Under the pieces are notes generated by a model that saw only the letters and a program-made list of their open reading frames with translations, was not told where the DNA came from and ran no database searches. DNA of 36,615 nucleotides from Deltaproteobacteria bacterium ADurb.Bin207 (GTDB lineage Bacteria; Myxococcota_A; Polyangia; Polyangiales; Polyangiaceae), in assembly GCA_002070115.1 (NCBI GenBank), contig MWCO01000062.1:1-36615 (forward strand). The letters run 5' to 3'. The position numbers and the translations under genes are program-made. Shown in pieces: positions 3,671-11,035 of this stretch (position 1 is the stretch's first letter; each line of letters opens with the position of its first letter).

Positions 3671-5476
3671 ATGGGCAGGACCATCGTCGAAAAAATCCTC
3701 GGTACCAAAAGCAATTGCGATGCTCGCGCCGGCGATATCGTCGATATCCACATCGACGCTCGCGTGGCACGCGACTTCGGCGGCGCCAACGTCGTCAAAC
3801 ACATCCAATCCACAGGATTGCGTGTCCACGACCCCGCGCGCACTTACTTCACCTTCGATTGCAATCCCACCGGCAGCGATCAGAAATACGCCACCAACCA
3901 ACAAACCTGCCGCATGTTCGCGCGCGATCATGGCATCCGCGTCTTCGACATCGACCAAGGCATCGGTACGCATCTCGCCATGGACCGTGGCCTGATCGGT
4001 CCTGGAGACACCTTCGTTTCCACCGATTCGCACGCCAACATCCTCGGCGCCATCTGTGCCTTTGGACAGGGCATGGGCGATCAAGATATCGCACACGCCT
4101 TCGCTCACGGCACCGTCTGGTTCCGTGTTCCGCCTTCCGTTCGCATCGAGTTGCGTGGCACGCCCGCGCCCGATGCCACCCCCAAGGATATCACGCTCGC
4201 CTTGCTCCGACGTTTCGGCGCCAATGGGCTGCTCGGTGTCGCCGCCGAGATGTACGGCACCTATATCGACAACCTCGATCTTCCGGGACGGATCACCATG
4301 GCGTCCATGTTTACGGAAATGGGTGCAATCATTGGACTTTTCCCTGTCACGGACACCATCGCCCAACAGCTTTCCACCATCTCGAAACGTCCTTTCACCA
4401 TCATGCATGCCGACCCGGACGCCGAGTATGTCGAACGGTATGTCGTCGATATCGAAGGCATCGGCCCGATGATCTCGCGTCCAGGTCATCCCGAAGACGT
4501 GGTTCCCGTCACCGAAGTCGAAGGCATTCCGATCGATTCGGCGCTCGTTGGCTCTTGCACCAATGGTCGCATCGACGATATTCGCGCGGCGGCGCGCGTG
4601 CTTTCCGGAAGGCATGTAGCCGAAAGTGTCGTATTCAAGATCGTGCCTTCCACCGATGCGGTGTGGAATCTTGCCTTGCAAGACGGACTGCTGCGCGAAC
4701 TCAAGCAGGCGGGCGTGCTCGTGGGCAACGCGGGATGCGCGGGTTGCGCCGCGGGTCAAGTGGGTCAAAACGGTCCTGGGGAGGTGACGGTCACGACGGG
4801 AAATCGAAATTTTGCTGGTAAACAAGGCAAAGGGGACGTGTATCTTGCCTCTCCGGAAACGGTGGCGGCCTCTGCCGTGGCCGGATGCATCACGACTGCA
4901 AAGCGCCTGGCCGCGGGCGCTTACACACGAAAAGCTAGAAAAACACATCTCGAAGCGGCTCAAAAAGAGGCTGCGACTCGACGGCAAGTCCCCACCGAGG
5001 TCACGGGAAGGGTGTGGCGAATCCCTGTCGATAACATCGATACCGATATGATTTTTCATAATAGGCATCTCGCCATCACCGCCCGGCAGGAGATGGGACA
5101 ATACGCCTTTGGCAACTTGCAGGGGTTTGAACACTTTGCGAAGCAAGCCAAACCCGGCGACATCATCGTGACGGGAAAAAACTTCGGTGCGGGTAGTTCT
5201 CGTCAACAAGCCGTGGATTGCTTTCTGGCGCTGGGAATCAGCGTCATTGTCGCCGAGTCTTTCGGCGCCATCTACGAACGCAACGCGATCAACGTGGGCA
5301 TGCCGATTTTACGCGCCCCTGCCCTTGCCGAAGTGCAAGACGGCGACACGGTCCATGTGGATTTCCGAACGGGTGTCGTGAGCATCCCTTCCCGCGGAAT
5401 ATCCGTAAAGGGACAGCCGTTTTCCGATGTTCAACTTCGTATTTATGAGCGAGGAGGCCTTCTGGTCGCGGGTTGA
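3671..5476 (+). CDS. Aconitase/3-isopropylmalate isomerase-family hydratase, large and small domains fused
   Basis: A [4Fe-4S] hydro-lyase of 601 residues resembling LeuC fused to LeuD, the layout of the putative Aquifex-type aconitases. The catalytic domain carries DSHANILGA (119-127) and three cluster cysteines: Cys296 in GSCTNGR, then Cys356 and Cys359 in NAGCAGC. The swivel domain begins with DNIDTD (454-459) and has GSSRQQAV (508-515), where the family usually has GSSREHA. Expected chemistry is water removal and addition on a citrate- or malate-like acid. Citrate/isocitrate is the simplest guess because the next two genes encode citrate lyase; homologous enzymes on citraconate or dimethylmalate remain possible. 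GAAAGG lies 7 nt before the ATG. It is first of three genes in one direction, 41 bp before citDE. The family is certain, the substrate is not. Confidence 0.85.
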   Translation: MGRTIVEKILGTKSNCDARAGDIVDIHIDARVARDFGGANVVKHIQSTGLRVHDPARTYFTFDCNPTGSDQKYATNQQTCRMFARDHGIRVFDIDQGIGTHLAMDRGLIGPGDTFVSTDSHANILGAICAFGQGMGDQDIAHAFAHGTVWFRVPPSVRIELRGTPAPDATPKDITLALLRRFGANGLLGVAAEMYGTYIDNLDLPGRITMASMFTEMGAIIGLFPVTDTIAQQLSTISKRPFTIMHADPDAEYVERYVVDIEGIGPMISRPGHPEDVVPVTEVEGIPIDSALVGSCTNGRIDDIRAAARVLSGRHVAESVVFKIVPSTDAVWNLALQDGLLRELKQAGVLVGNAGCAGCAAGQVGQNGPGEVTVTTGNRNFAGKQGKGDVYLASPETVAASAVAGCITTAKRLAAGAYTRKARKTHLEAAQKEAATRRQVPTEVTGRVWRIPVDNIDTDMIFHNRHLAITARQEMGQYAFGNLQGFEHFAKQAKPGDIIVTGKNFGAGSSRQQAVDCFLALGISVIVAESFGAIYERNAINVGMPILRAPALAEVQDGDTVHVDFRTGVVSIPSRGISVKGQPFSDVQLRIYERGGLLVAG

Positions 5477-5517
5477 ACCCCGATCCATGGGCTCTGATTC
5501 ACAGCAGGAGAACAAAC

Positions 5518-6732
5518 ATGACGAGACAAGGTCAGGCCGGAAGGCAAGGCGCGGACGTTCGATCCGATTGTCATGTCGCCTGTACACTGCGCGACGAAGG
5601 GGGCATCGATCTCGAGATCGAATCGAAAGTCGCCACGATGTTCGGCCACAAGATCCGCAAGCAGGTGCTTGATATTTTGGCGGACATGAATGTGGCTCAT
5701 GCCACGGTGCAGGTGCAGGACGGGGGGGCTTTGCCCTTCACGTTGGATGCGCGGGTGGAGGCGGCCCTCCGAGCCGCCGACCCTTCGTTGAAGCGAAACC
5801 GATGGATCGAGGCAAAAGCCGGTTGGGACACGCCGACACGACGTGATCGGTTTCGTCGATCACGCTTGTATCTACCCGGAAATGAACCGAAATTCATGAT
5901 CAACGCGGGGCTCTACGGAGCGGATGGTCTCATCCTCGATCTCGAAGATTCCGTCGCGCCCATGCATAAGTTCGCCGCGCGTTATCTCGTTCGAAACGCG
6001 CTGCGCATCCTGGACTTCGGCACCGCGGAACGCATGGTCCGCATCAACCAGGGGGACCTGGGACTCGAGGACCTCGATGTCATCCTGCCGCATCACGTTC
6101 ATCTCGTGCTGATTCCTAAGGTCGAGACCGCGGAACAAGTTCGGCAGGTCGATGACCGGGTGGCAATGCATCTTGGCAAAGACCACGGCGTGCTGTTGAT
6201 GCCGATTATCGAGAGCGCCAAAGGCGGATGGTTTGCCTACGATATCGCGATGGCGTCGCCATCGGTAGTAGCGCTCGCCATTGGCTTGGAGGACTATACG
6301 GCGGACATTGGCACGCAGCGAACCAACGAGGGTCGCGAGAGTCTCTGGCTTCGTCAGCAGGTGATCAATGCCGCCCGTGCGGCAGGGGTGCAGCCCATCG
6401 ATACGGTTTTTTCCGATGTGGCGGATTCGGAAGGTCTTCGCGGCAGCGTCATCGAAGCCAAACAACTCGGTTTCGATGGCAAAGGATGCATTCATCCTCG
6501 TCAGATTCCGATCATCCACGAGGCTTTCGCGCCCACGCGCCAAGAGATCGACAAAGCGCAAAAAATCGTGCGTGCTTTCGACGTGGCGCAGCAACAAGGG
6601 CTCGCGGCCGTGTCGTTGGGAAGCAAAATGATCGACCCACCGGTGGTGAAACGAGCCATGCATACCGTAACGCTTGCGATTGCCTGTGGGTTGTTGTCGG
6701 AGGACTGGAAAACGAAGGAGGTGTCTTCATGA
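5518..6732 (+). CDS. Fused citrate lyase acyl carrier protein (CitD) and beta subunit (CitE)
   Basis: A 404-residue fusion. Residues 1-90 match CitD, the carrier subunit of citrate lyase: RSDCHV followed 13 residues after the Ser by IDLEI aligns with the E(S/T)xDVM...IxLxI pattern of CitD, making Ser16 the likely attachment site for the phosphoribosyl-dephospho-CoA group. Residues 108-404 are CitE, the citryl lyase: RSRLYLPGNEPK, DLEDSV (141-146), VRIN and PKVE (200-203). CitE releases oxaloacetate from the citryl thioester. In classical operons these are separate genes. AGCAGGAG ends 7 nt before the ATG at 5518, so that start is preferred to an in-frame ATG at 5473. The stop overlaps the citF start (ATGA). 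No citC, citX or citG is nearby, although the lyase needs a prosthetic group and acetylation. Confidence 0.88.
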   Translation: MTRQGQAGRQGADVRSDCHVACTLRDEGGIDLEIESKVATMFGHKIRKQVLDILADMNVAHATVQVQDGGALPFTLDARVEAALRAADPSLKRNRWIEAKAGWDTPTRRDRFRRSRLYLPGNEPKFMINAGLYGADGLILDLEDSVAPMHKFAARYLVRNALRILDFGTAERMVRINQGDLGLEDLDVILPHHVHLVLIPKVETAEQVRQVDDRVAMHLGKDHGVLLMPIIESAKGGWFAYDIAMASPSVVALAIGLEDYTADIGTQRTNEGRESLWLRQQVINAARAAGVQPIDTVFSDVADSEGLRGSVIEAKQLGFDGKGCIHPRQIPIIHEAFAPTRQEIDKAQKIVRAFDVAQQQGLAAVSLGSKMIDPPVVKRAMHTVTLAIACGLLSEDWKTKEVSS

Positions 6733-8291
6733 GCGCGCTCGTTAAAAACGCCGCGGGACGCCTCGTCCCCACGGAAATCAACGGAAAACCTGCCGTCCCC
6801 TACCAGGGCGTCCACCAGTTTCGACCCTCGGGACGCAAGGCCGCTCCGCCCATTCGTTCCTGCGCCGACTACCCGGCCGACGGCAACAAAATCGTGGGCA
6901 GCCTTCGCGAAGCCTTGGAACGCTGTGGCGTGAAAAACGGAATGACCGTGGGCACGCACCATCACTTCCGCAATGGCGATTTCGTGGCCAATGCCGTGAT
7001 GGATACCCTGGCGGACATGGGCGTACGCGATGTGGTTTGGGCACCTTCCGCCTCGTTTCCATGCCACGCTCCGATGGTTCGCCACCTCGAATCCGGGGTC
7101 ATGCACCATATCGAAGGAAGCATGAATGGCCCGCTTGGCGAGTATTGCTCCGCCGGAAAAATGCGAGGTCTCGGCGTATTGCGCTCCCACGGCGGAAGAT
7201 TCCAAGCCATCCAAGACGATGAATTGCACATCGACCTGGCGGTCATCGCCGCTCCCACCGCCGACCCCTTCGGCAACGCCAACGGCGTTCAAGGTCCGAG
7301 CGCTTGTGGCCCCCTCGGCTTCGCCCTCGCCGACTCCCTGTACGCGGATCGCGTCGTCGTCGTCACCGATAACCTCGTCCCCTTCCCTTGTGTACCTTGG
7401 CAAATTCACGGACAAAACGTCGATTATGTCGTCGTTCACGACCGCATCGGAGACCCAAGCAAAATCGTCAGCGGCACCACCCAGGTAACCCGAAGCCCCG
7501 ACCGATTGCTCATCGCCGAATATATCGCTCGCTTCGTCGCCGAAGTCGGAATCATGGCGGACGGCTTCTCCTTTCAGGCCGGCGCCGGCGGAATCACCCT
7601 CGCCTTCGCCTTGTACCTGAAAGAACTCATGCGAAAGGCAAACGTCAAAGCTCGCTTCATTCGCGGCGGCTCCACCAAATATCTCGTCGATATGCTCCAA
7701 GAAGGATTCACCGACTATATCCTCGACGGACAAACCTTCGATCTCGATGGTGTGAGGTCCATGCGCGAGGACCCCAAACGGCACCTCGATACCAGCCCGT
7801 TCACCAGCTACAATTTCCACGGCAAAGGCAATTTCGCCTCGATCCTCGACTGCGTCGTGCTCGGCGCCACCGAAGTCGACAGAGCTTTCAACGCCAATGT
7901 CGTCACCCACTCCGACGGCGTTTTGCTCCATGGCATTGGCGGCTGGCAAAATTGCCTCACCGCAAAGTGTACGATCCTGGCCGTTCCCAGCTTCCGCGAC
8001 CGCATCCCCGTCATCCTCGATCGCGTCACGACGCTCTGCGGTCCTGGAGAACTCATCGATGTAATTGCCACCGAACGCGGGATTGCCATCAATCCCCGGC
8101 GACAGGATCTCATCGATGCCGCAAAACGCTGCACGGTCCCCATCCGCTCGATCGATGATATCGCCGATGAAGTGAATCGTCTCACGGGCGGCCCCCCTGA
8201 TGCTCCCACCTTGGGAGACAAGGTCGTTGCCGCCATCAAATGGGTCGATGGAACCGTCATCGATAGCGTGCGCCAATCCCTGAATTGTTGA
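6729..8291 (+). CDS. citF: Citrate lyase alpha subunit (citrate:acetyl-ACP transferase)
   Basis: A 520-residue protein close in length to known CitF (about 510). CitF swaps the acetyl group on the carrier for citrate, giving citryl-ACP, which CitE cleaves to oxaloacetate and acetyl-ACP; the net reaction is citrate to acetate plus oxaloacetate. Family signs include MTVGTHHHFRNGD near the N-terminus, AAPTADPFGNANG, a glycine-rich FQAGAGGITLA segment and HGIGGWQNC near the C-terminus. A strong AAGGAGG at 6715-6721, 7 nt before the ATG, sits inside the end of citDE, and start and stop overlap by four bases, so the two subunits should be translationally coupled. A 9-bp hairpin follows the stop. 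Citramalate lyase uses the same subunit type, so citramalate is an alternative substrate. Confidence 0.9.
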   Translation: MSALVKNAAGRLVPTEINGKPAVPYQGVHQFRPSGRKAAPPIRSCADYPADGNKIVGSLREALERCGVKNGMTVGTHHHFRNGDFVANAVMDTLADMGVRDVVWAPSASFPCHAPMVRHLESGVMHHIEGSMNGPLGEYCSAGKMRGLGVLRSHGGRFQAIQDDELHIDLAVIAAPTADPFGNANGVQGPSACGPLGFALADSLYADRVVVVTDNLVPFPCVPWQIHGQNVDYVVVHDRIGDPSKIVSGTTQVTRSPDRLLIAEYIARFVAEVGIMADGFSFQAGAGGITLAFALYLKELMRKANVKARFIRGGSTKYLVDMLQEGFTDYILDGQTFDLDGVRSMREDPKRHLDTSPFTSYNFHGKGNFASILDCVVLGATEVDRAFNANVVTHSDGVLLHGIGGWQNCLTAKCTILAVPSFRDRIPVILDRVTTLCGPGELIDVIATERGIAINPRRQDLIDAAKRCTVPIRSIDDIADEVNRLTGGPPDAPTLGDKVVAAIKWVDGTVIDSVRQSLNC

Positions 8292-8355: not shown

Positions 8356-10137
8356 ATGCCAAACAACACCGATGGGCTCGCCGCCTGCTCGATATCCTGC
8401 CCGCATCACCCACGTTGCCCAGGATGTCCCTTGCTCGACCTGCCCTACCCCGAGCAATGCCAACGCAAGCATAATACCGTGGTCGACGCCTTCCGTGCCT
8501 ATCCTTCCCTTCGAAATATCGAGGTTTCCGATCTACGCGCCGCGCCAACCATCCATTCTTATCGCATCCGCGCCAAGCTCGTCGTCAGCGACGACGGCAT
8601 CGGTTTGTTCGCCGCCGGTACCCACGATATCGTCGATACCCCCTCGTGCCCCGTCCTTCATCCGCTCGTACGACAAACCGTGCAGCGATTGCGCCTTTTG
8701 CCTCTTGTCCGACTCGGTGTGAGCAGCGTGGATGTGCGGCACGTCGACGACGGCGTGCTGATCACGCTTGCCACAAGCCAGCGCCACAATCCCGCGCTGC
8801 TCGCGTCGATCGATGAGATGATGCTGTCGATTCCCCACCTCGTCTGTGTGGCGGTCAGCGAGCGCGACCGTTCCGATCCGCAAGTGCTCGGCAGCCAACC
8901 CACCGTCGTTCGGGGCCCCGACGCCGCGCGCTACACCCCCGATCGGCATGCGCCTTATCACTATGCTGGACCAGGAGCTTTCACCCAGGCCCACCCGGAA
9001 TCCATGACGCAATTGCACCGAGACCTGGAAGAACAAATCATTCGTTCTTTCGGTCGTATCGAAGGATGTCGGGTGCTCGAACTTTACGCGGGAACAGGAG
9101 CGTTTAGCCTTCGACTGGCGCACGCCGGCGCCCACGTCACACTCGTCGAAAGCTTTGCGCCTTCCGTTCAACTGGCGGCTCGAGCTGCCACGGAACAAAA
9201 TCTCGCCCTCGAGACCCGCATCGGCGACGCCGCGGTCGTGACCCAGCAACTCCTTCGAAACCATGCTTTTTTCGACCTCATCATCGTCAATCCGCCGCGA
9301 CGAGGACTCGCTCCCGCCGTACGAACGGCCGTGATTTCTCTTCAACCGCGCATGGCGCTTTACGTGTCTTGCAACCCAATCACATTGGCGCGCGACGTAG
9401 CCGTGTGGACATACCATGGCCTACGCCCACGGATGATTCGCCCCTACGACATGATCCCCCTGTCCGAAGTGGTGGAAACAATGGCCGTGCTGACTCCGGC
9501 TGTACCAACCCAGCCAACCCTGCTGTATTCCGACCCCCAACTGCTCGTGGTCGATAAACCAGCCCACGAAAAACTCCTCGCTTCCCCAGGCGCTCCAGGC
9601 TCCTTGCTCGAACGGGTCCGGCAAACGTTAGGCGCACCCGACGCCCAACCTCTTCATCCGATGGACGTGGGACAGAGCGGCGTTTGTTTGCTGGCCCGTA
9701 CGGCTGCAGCGAAAAATGCGCTACTTCAAGACGTTCTCCCACGCCAAAGCAGTTGGACCGTCCTCGCCAAAGGCATCCCGCACGCCAAAGGCTCCCTGGG
9801 AAAAACCAAAGCAGCACACCCCGGTCCGCCCATGCGCTACGTTCGACAACAAGTCATCGCGGGCCACGGATGGCTCCAGGTTTTTACGCAAGGAGACGAT
9901 GCTCAGGGGATGGCTCGCGGCCTGTCACGAATCGGTCATCCCATCGTGGGTGACGAAAAATTCGGCGACCGGCGCACCAACCAATACTTCATCCACCGTC
10001 ACGGCCTCGATCGGCCGTTCATGCATCTGGATACGGTGACGGTATTTCACCAGGGCAGGACGCTTCAGTTTCGAAGCGAACTTGCAGCGGATCTGCAGGC
10101 CGTTGCCGACGACCTGCGTGCGTCGGCAGAAGAATAA
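8356..10137 (+). CDS. RlmD/TrmA-type RNA uracil-C5 methyltransferase fused to a degenerate RluA-like domain
   Basis: A 593-residue fusion. Residues 1-380 are a TrmA/RlmD-family m5U methyltransferase: Fe-S cysteines Cys15, Cys21, Cys24 (C-x5-C-x2-C) and Cys98; SAM motif LELYAGTGAFS (241-251); NPPRRG (312-317); catalytic Cys339 in VSCNP; and Glu374 exactly 35 residues later, the same spacing as in E. coli RlmD. Residues 385-580 resemble RluA pseudouridine synthases: LLVVDKPA, then HPMDVGQSG where the family has HRLDxxTSG (candidate Asp437), and IGHPIVGDEKFG. Several RluA hallmarks are altered: HRLD Arg is Pro, the KxY Tyr is Trp, and the HQIR motif is lost. The second domain may therefore bind RNA without modifying it. 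The methyltransferase call is strong; activity of the second domain is uncertain. Confidence 0.85.
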   Translation: MPNNTDGLAACSISCPHHPRCPGCPLLDLPYPEQCQRKHNTVVDAFRAYPSLRNIEVSDLRAAPTIHSYRIRAKLVVSDDGIGLFAAGTHDIVDTPSCPVLHPLVRQTVQRLRLLPLVRLGVSSVDVRHVDDGVLITLATSQRHNPALLASIDEMMLSIPHLVCVAVSERDRSDPQVLGSQPTVVRGPDAARYTPDRHAPYHYAGPGAFTQAHPESMTQLHRDLEEQIIRSFGRIEGCRVLELYAGTGAFSLRLAHAGAHVTLVESFAPSVQLAARAATEQNLALETRIGDAAVVTQQLLRNHAFFDLIIVNPPRRGLAPAVRTAVISLQPRMALYVSCNPITLARDVAVWTYHGLRPRMIRPYDMIPLSEVVETMAVLTPAVPTQPTLLYSDPQLLVVDKPAHEKLLASPGAPGSLLERVRQTLGAPDAQPLHPMDVGQSGVCLLARTAAAKNALLQDVLPRQSSWTVLAKGIPHAKGSLGKTKAAHPGPPMRYVRQQVIAGHGWLQVFTQGDDAQGMARGLSRIGHPIVGDEKFGDRRTNQYFIHRHGLDRPFMHLDTVTVFHQGRTLQFRSELAADLQAVADDLRASAEE

Positions 10138-10165
10138 ATATTGTTATTTCAAATAGTTATAACGA
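10133..10165. repeat. AT-rich intergenic element, copy B, containing both stop codons
   Basis: An AT-rich patch containing TATTTCAAATA, which is self-complementary around a central C, and ending in GTTATAAC. The TAA of the fused methyltransferase gene (10135-10137) and the stop of the convergent DUF2400 gene (10157-10159) both lie inside it. Confidence 0.5.
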
Positions 10166-11035
10166 TTCCGCCATCCTAGGTTGCGCTCGTTGTTGGCAAT
10201 CGGCTCGAACCGGACAGCTTTCACACCGTGTGGGATCGGGGCGGGTCGAACAGCCAAGCGTCATCCCGAGATGGCATAAAGCAAAGTCGAAACGCACGGG
10301 ATCGTCGGGGTCAATTTGACGCAATACCGCGGTGATATCCTCCGCTGCCAACCAGCTTGGGTTGGACCGTTGGGTCATGCCAAGGAGTTTTCCCAGGCGA
10401 TGAATATGCGTATCGACGGGGATCAACAGCGCACTGGGCGGGACCGTGGTCCACAATCCCAAGTCGACACCATCGTTCGGACGCACCATCCAGCGTAGAA
10501 AAAGCAGGAGTCGCTTATTTGGGCTTGCCCCGGCCGGGTCGGGCAGCACATGACCATAACCGCGTCGCCCCTGATCCTCATGGTCGAAAGCACCGGCGGC
10601 ATCGCGCAACTGTCGCGTCCACGCTACGAGGGCGGGTCGTAACGCTCCCGCCAGGTGGAATTCTTTGCAAAATGCTTCGCCCAACGAGCCCTGCCGACGT
10701 TGTACGAACCTGGCGCCCACTAGCAAACGGCCGATGTCCCGCCCTCGAACCATCCGGTACTGGAACCCCTCCAAACGACACAACGTTTCGTGCCGATCCT
10801 CGAGCACACCCATCCAATCGCTGCCCATTCGCGAAAGCACCTGTTCGATCGCGCGTCGCAGGGCTTTCACCTGACCGAAGGCGAGAGATGCGGAAAGCAA
10901 TCCCGCCAATTCCTGCTGGGCGGGATGACGATACGTTCGCACGACGCCTACGGGGTCGAGAGCCAGACGGGCCGGCACGTCACAGGTGGCGACGATCGAT
11001 TCGAGTATTTCAGCCAGTTGCACGCAAGAGCGCAT
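10157..11035 (-). CDS. TIGR02757/DUF2400 family protein
   Basis: A 292-residue protein of the conserved family TIGR02757 (DUF2400), whose function is not established. Family landmarks are ELAGLLSASLAFGQV near the N-terminus, NKRLLLFLRWMVR followed by DGVDLGLW, and LIPVDTHIHRLGKLLG. The C-terminus carries four cysteines, Cys262-x8-Cys271-x2-Cys274-x5-Cys280, a spacing like the [4Fe-4S] loop of endonuclease III-type DNA glycosylases (C-x6-C-x2-C-x5-C). This, with the all-helical sequence, suggests a relation to the HhH-GPD fold, but I see no clear catalytic Lys/Asp pair. It is convergent with the methyltransferase gene and shares its terminal AT-rich element. The family call is strong; function is unknown. 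Confidence 0.82.
   Translation of the reverse strand: MRSCVQLAEILESIVATCDVPARLALDPVGVVRTYRHPAQQELAGLLSASLAFGQVKALRRAIEQVLSRMGSDWMGVLEDRHETLCRLEGFQYRMVRGRDIGRLLVGARFVQRRQGSLGEAFCKEFHLAGALRPALVAWTRQLRDAAGAFDHEDQGRRGYGHVLPDPAGASPNKRLLLFLRWMVRPNDGVDLGLWTTVPPSALLIPVDTHIHRLGKLLGMTQRSNPSWLAAEDITAVLRQIDPDDPVRFDFALCHLGMTLGCSTRPDPTRCESCPVRADCQQRAQPRMAESL

Follow-up and report, generated by a model that had tools for sequence, protein, structure and literature searches.

An RNA uracil-C5 methyltransferase fused to an RluA-fold domain with recurrent loss of the pseudouridine synthase active site in Myxococcota

Introduction

The known 5-methyluridine (m5U) sites of bacterial RNA are U54 of tRNA and U747 and U1939 of 23S rRNA. 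The two 23S sites (PMC6235398) are the business of RlmC, RlmD (RumA) and RlmCD, methyltransferases that have in common a fold, Fe-S cysteines, an S-adenosylmethionine (SAM) motif and a catalytic pair of Cys and Glu. Pseudouridine synthases (PUS) of the RluA family, among them TruC, RluC, RluA and RluD, share another fold and the motifs HRLD, Tyr and HQIR. An enzyme in which an RluA-type synthase is joined to a second RNA-modifying domain has been described in Vibrio cholerae, where TrcP combines a deaminase with an RluA-like synthase and the linkage of the two is needed for activity (PMC9553926). We found no description of a methyltransferase-PUS fusion in the open-access literature.

Here, we analyze such a fusion in a stretch of 36,615 nucleotides from a member of the Polyangiaceae (hereafter the window). 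The fusion protein has the fold, Fe-S cysteines, SAM motif and Cys and Glu pair of the 23S m5U methyltransferases but, unlike RlmD and RlmCD, no N-terminal TRAM domain, and it carries an extra C-terminal RluA-fold domain. The HRLD, Tyr and HQIR motifs of the RluA family are shared by canonical orthologues of the fusion, whereas the window copy lacks three of the four key residues, is fused to a methyltransferase and has no S4 domain. TrcP differs in its partner, a cytidine deaminase, in its target, position 32 of tRNA-Tyr, and in that both of its halves are active.

Results

The fusion is encoded by a single open reading frame that starts with ATG and runs for 593 codons without interruption (Table 1). 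No NCBIfam model spans the whole protein in a profile search, and the protein falls below every NCBIfam equivalog cut-off, scoring 124.4 bits against the RlmD equivalog (cut-off 183.55) and 114.1 bits against that of RlmC (cut-off 558), with which it is nevertheless colinear end to end, from residue 15. The RlmD match starts at model position 57 of 432 and the structural alignment at RlmCD residue 71, in keeping with the missing TRAM domain, and the same genome encodes a separate RlmD-like protein of 446 amino acids on another contig (C165). When aligned with RlmC, RlmD and TrmA of Escherichia coli, the putative nucleophile and catalytic base lie 35 residues apart and are invariant among the orthologues. 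Because this catalytic chemistry is invariant, we infer that the methyltransferase half is active. A preliminary description, made from the letters of the window, had proposed an RNA methyltransferase joined to an RluA-like domain, and the intact reading frame, the profile matches and the predicted fold bear this out. It had also credited the first half with a complete RlmD-type set of residues; all the Fe-S cysteines, C339, E374 and the spacing are indeed present, but 'RlmD-type' is too specific a label for a protein that has no TRAM domain, scores under the RlmD cut-off and coexists with a separate RlmD-like protein.

Table 1. Features of the fusion gene and their positions in the window
Feature	Position	Strand	Evidence
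Fusion gene, m5U-type RNA methyltransferase and RluA-fold domain	8356..10137	+	593 aa; full length in orthologues from many tens of genomes
Methyltransferase half (residues 14-383), of RlmC/RlmD/RlmCD type but lacking a TRAM domain	8395..9504	+	TIGR00479, E 5.3e-36; Z 44.7 to 5zq0 (rmsd 2.0, 364 residues)
Fe-S cysteines C15, C21, C24 and C98	8398..8649	+	Cys in 118-123 of 124 orthologues, also in E. coli RlmC and RlmD
Nucleophile Cys339 (catalytic)	9370..9372	+	124/124 orthologues
Catalytic base Glu374	9475..9477	+	124/124 orthologues
RluA-fold C-terminal domain, residues 384-593, damaged active site	9505..10134	+	Z 23.0 to RluC catalytic domain 1v9k over 387-591; Z 21-22 to RluD; PF00849 15.4 bits (cut-off 26.8)
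Motif II H434-P-M-D437 (HRLD in sister and most orthologues); Pro435 at the flipping Arg, Asp437 retained	9655..9666	+	Alignment
Trp467 replacing active-site Tyr	9754..9756	+	Alignment
Q517-G518-M519-A520-R521 replacing HQIRR; catalytic Arg is Ala520	9904..9918	+	Alignment
Retained non-catalytic motif N542...L551-D-R553-P-F-M-H557	9979..10026	+	L551 and R553 100%, H557 95-100% conserved even in copies without catalytic residues

Directly upstream of the fusion gene lies an apparent CitD-CitE fusion (5473-6732, +), in which a CitD-like acyl-carrier domain of citrate lyase (PF06857) and a CitE lyase domain share one frame, followed by citF (ORF 6228-8291). Convergent with the fusion gene is a gene (10157-11035, -) for a TIGR02757/DUF2400 protein with weak similarity to DNA glycosylases.

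Structure prediction, one of the checks suggested in the preliminary description, returned an RlmCD/RumA fold for the N-terminal half and an RluC/RluD fold for the C-terminal half. The AlphaFold2 model, for which 26 sequences were aligned, has a mean pLDDT of 89.7 and a pTM of 0.89; the best structural match of residues 14-383 is RlmCD in complex with U747-loop RNA (5zq0), with RumA at Z 39.4. The damaged half is predicted to fold still as a complete RluA domain, since residues 384-593 superpose on RluC and RluD. The fusion protein matches the RluA subfamily model TIGR00005 (E 1.4e-11), and while the PF00849 score of the window copy stays under the gathering threshold, that of its orthologue L009 reaches 78.3 bits. 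In a model of a shortened relative (L041), the C-terminal remnant lay mostly at pLDDT 50-83, and the list of structural matches was filled by methyltransferases.

The alignment reproduces exactly the C-terminal motifs that had been read from the sequence, that is, HPMD in place of HRLD, Trp in place of Tyr, a missing HQIR arginine and a retained Asp437. Thus D437 is the only one of four key residues left in the window PUS domain, the others being replaced by P435, W467 and A520. RluA loses all activity when its motif II Arg is changed to Met or Lys, and RluB with Ala there retains 0.6%; the Tyr to Phe change Y140F leaves RluB about 3% (PMC3919597). By analogy with these mutants, pseudouridine formation by the window protein is very unlikely, because Pro, Trp and Ala occupy the places of the flipping Arg, the Tyr and the HQIR Arg. 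D437 by itself is no evidence of activity.

We then looked at the distribution of the fusion, using as query the nearest orthologue of the window copy, L009 (genome G045), to which it is 49% identical. Matches were retrieved from 110 of 183 genomes searched in the order, the majority spanning both halves and a few the methyltransferase half only. Other classes of the phylum yielded further full-length fusions as well as a second set in which the match was limited to the methyltransferase half, yet a C-terminal synthase remnant was present; the fusion sought by the preliminary description in other Myxococcota is therefore widespread. The records holding it include metagenome assemblies labelled Polyangiaceae, Myxococcales and Deltaproteobacteria, and several copies sit on contigs of >10 Mb. 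No plasmid or phage record gave a match covering >80% of the query, and spread by such elements was rejected on this ground; viral contigs held two standalone methyltransferases and no fusion. Four families (f30, f32, f38 and f39; L228-L246) have a uniformly shortened synthase remnant of about 110-130 amino acids after the methyltransferase, with a strongly conserved FFxEKxGLxRPFxH motif. Each genome of genus g6 encodes two fusion paralogues whose synthase halves are damaged to different degrees (L208 and L209 in G005, L206 and L207 in G050, and also G171-G173).

Loss of the active site is a recurrent event in this family. The complete set of four PUS residues (the Arg and Asp of HRLD, the Tyr and the HQIR Arg) is present in 53 of 127 distinct C-terminal domains, and the remaining domains lack one to four of them. 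On a tree of the methyltransferase half, parsimony required at least 15 state changes of the catalytic Asp, and counts allowing losses only were 15 for the Asp, 19 for the Tyr, 13 for the HQIR Arg and 28 for any of the four, all of them approximate, as this was a quick tree with 38 unsupported inner branches. The columns that are lost (the Asp, the flipping Arg, the Tyr and HQIRRH), close to invariant in canonical copies, are conserved at 0.05-0.32 in 22 damaged domains and at 0-0.05 in 19 short remnants. In contrast, S441, G442, H504, G532, L551, R553 and H557, likewise close to invariant in canonical copies, are conserved at 0.95-1.0 in damaged domains and short remnants alike, and the window copy holds every residue of this class. 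The dN/dS of damaged domains was 0.01-0.51, and no tested pair reached 1: L199/L200, in which the Asp has become Glu, gave 0.01, the short remnants L240/L244 gave 0.03, L220/L221 gave 0.06 and more distant pairs, several of which are near saturation in dS, gave 0.20-0.51. These low values come from the damaged domains of relatives, the closest relative of the window copy being only 49% identical to it. In canonical copies, the synthase half is mostly slower to evolve than the methyltransferase to which it is joined, whereas the most damaged halves evolve about equally fast or somewhat faster, as would be expected if catalytic constraint were lost and another constraint remained. None of the 127 domains surveyed, all from genomes with a fusion match, has been deleted outright. 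Across the family, the decay of the PUS half is thus selective and not random rot, because the Asp was lost repeatedly while another set of residues stayed near-invariant and dN/dS was low.

Within this family, the window copy is sister to the canonical L009, with 97% support in the methyltransferase tree and 98/88 in the PUS tree. The two lineages differ mainly in the PUS half, whose branch is 1.85 long in the window copy and 0.14 in L009, compared with 0.66 and 0.43 for the methyltransferase half. Likewise, the PUS half of the window copy is 30-38% identical to outgroup fusions and that of its sister 50-58%, while the methyltransferase halves are about equally close to the outgroups (for example, 45% and 44%, respectively, to L011). 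The long PUS branch would be equally compatible with relaxed constraint and with a new role. The motif set had been put forward as something special to this protein, a view that canonical orthologues would contradict, and such orthologues make up 53 of the 127 domains, sister L009 included. Given the canonical motifs of the sister and of many relatives, the motifs of the window copy are a derived, decayed state and no new catalytic design, and a 'conserved novel catalytic motif' was rejected.

To narrow down the target of the methyltransferase, we considered the three known bacterial m5U sites by elimination. TrmFO is encoded in the host genome (529 bits, over the cut-off) and exceeds the cut-off in 86 of the 97 genomes searched, which disfavours tRNA U54. 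The host 23S rRNA retains the loop GUUGAAAA, with U746 and U747 both present. As TrmFO and the RlmD-like protein cover U54 and U1939 and the host 23S rRNA keeps this loop, the likeliest target of the fusion is probably 23S U747. Since U1939 is a substrate of RlmCD too, the structural match does not favour U747 over it. E. coli RluA modifies U746, the neighbour of U747, according to its record annotation, which would make it attractive to suppose an ancestor that modified both of these adjacent nucleotides. The fused PUS domains are, however, sister to TruC (support 96/88) and nearer to it than to RluA in the tree. TruC is the enzyme of tRNA position 65, and this proximity would count against the U746/U747 reading.

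The host genome also encodes a second fusion of an RluA-like domain, with an RlmI/RlmK-like methyltransferase (G000:C29:41433-43145; L124:1387-3099). Both fusions pair a PUS domain with an rRNA-type methyltransferase, but in the second the domain order is opposite and the methyltransferase belongs to an unrelated family. It too is damaged in the host (HLD, W and no HQIR), while full-length orthologues, found in about half of the relatives, are mostly canonical. Damage in the two fusions co-occurs across 46 genomes (Fisher P=0.006), but the supported branches supply no more than 3 independent pairs.

Discussion

On balance, we favour the explanation that the window protein is an active methyltransferase, with 23S U747 as its probable target, and that its PUS-derived module is a pseudoenzyme that has been kept to dock on RNA or to act as a scaffold. 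A domain of the RluA family, closest to TruC in the tree, would have been fused to a uracil-C5 methyltransferase early in Myxococcota, both halves probably being active in the ancestor. The synthase half would then have lost key catalytic residues in the window lineage and, independently, in many others, and yet have been kept as a non-catalytic module. Given the invariant residues and the fold, methylation would proceed at the Cys/Glu site, with helix 35 of 23S rRNA as the putative substrate. The retention of the PUS-derived domain and the selection on it suggest that it docks on or shapes the rRNA, or braces the methyltransferase, and thereby helps the target uridine into the methyltransferase site; in canonical relatives, the domain would also isomerize a nearby uridine. 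The preliminary description had offered an RNA-targeting module as one of two readings, and it is the one that we prefer for the window copy, in which catalytic residues of a kind lost repeatedly are gone and residues invariant elsewhere are kept. A bolder version, in which the ancestral polypeptide made neighbouring Psi746-m5U747 in helix 35 throughout the phylum and its synthase was converted many times into a dead but selected rRNA-handling module, is doubtful.

Several other explanations were weighed. The synthase half of the window copy may simply be dying, functionless and persisting only through co-translation with the methyltransferase, and the strong acceleration confined to the PUS half, the fully canonical sister and the shortened domains of some damaged relatives would all agree with such neutral decay. 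A frame open across 210 codons, a confident predicted fold and the presence in the window copy of each column kept by other damaged lineages argue against it, as do the purifying selection on damaged domains elsewhere and the lack of outright deletions among those surveyed, and we regard neutral decay as unlikely, if still a serious contender. We consider it rather improbable that the C-terminal domain serves folding, stability, oligomerization or the binding of a ribosome assembly factor with no contact to RNA. That the retained residues differ from the RNA-flipping and catalytic ones, and that what survives in the short remnants is mostly the C-terminal half of the domain, would suit a role of this kind; on the other hand, the domain descends from an RNA-binding fold, its fusion partner acts on RNA, and nothing found here points to a protein partner.

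The second reading of the preliminary description, in which a variant synthase makes two linked modifications, would have the window protein still bifunctional, with D437, Trp467 and other contacts producing pseudouridine through a variant site coupled to m5U formation. The retention of D437 speaks for it, as does the fact that the Tyr is not strictly essential, judging by RluB Y140F (PMC3919597), and two-domain RNA-modifying synthases exist in the form of TrcP (PMC9553926). Yet the flipping Arg has become Pro in a place where Met, Lys or Ala nearly inactivate RluA or RluB (PMC3919597), the HQIR Arg has become Ala, and in many relatives the Asp has been lost too; with flipping Arg, Tyr and HQIR Arg all gone, there is little chance that this copy is bifunctional, while for the 53 canonical orthologues a linked double modification would be the natural interpretation. 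As for an error of assembly or sequencing that brought two separate genes together, the host assembly is a draft in 220 contigs, but the same in-frame joint recurs in many tens of independent genomes, several times on contigs of >10 Mb, so that an artefact is excluded for practical purposes.

It has long been asked whether cells retain rRNA-modifying enzymes for the mark that they leave or for the handling of RNA in ribosome assembly. The present family offers many natural and independent losses of the active site in a PUS domain that is tied covalently to what would be a still-active enzyme, and the residues that survive can be read. A non-catalytic role of the PUS fold thereby becomes directly testable, and among cultivable myxobacteria the canonical members provide a candidate for a single bifunctional enzyme that sets two adjacent marks on rRNA.
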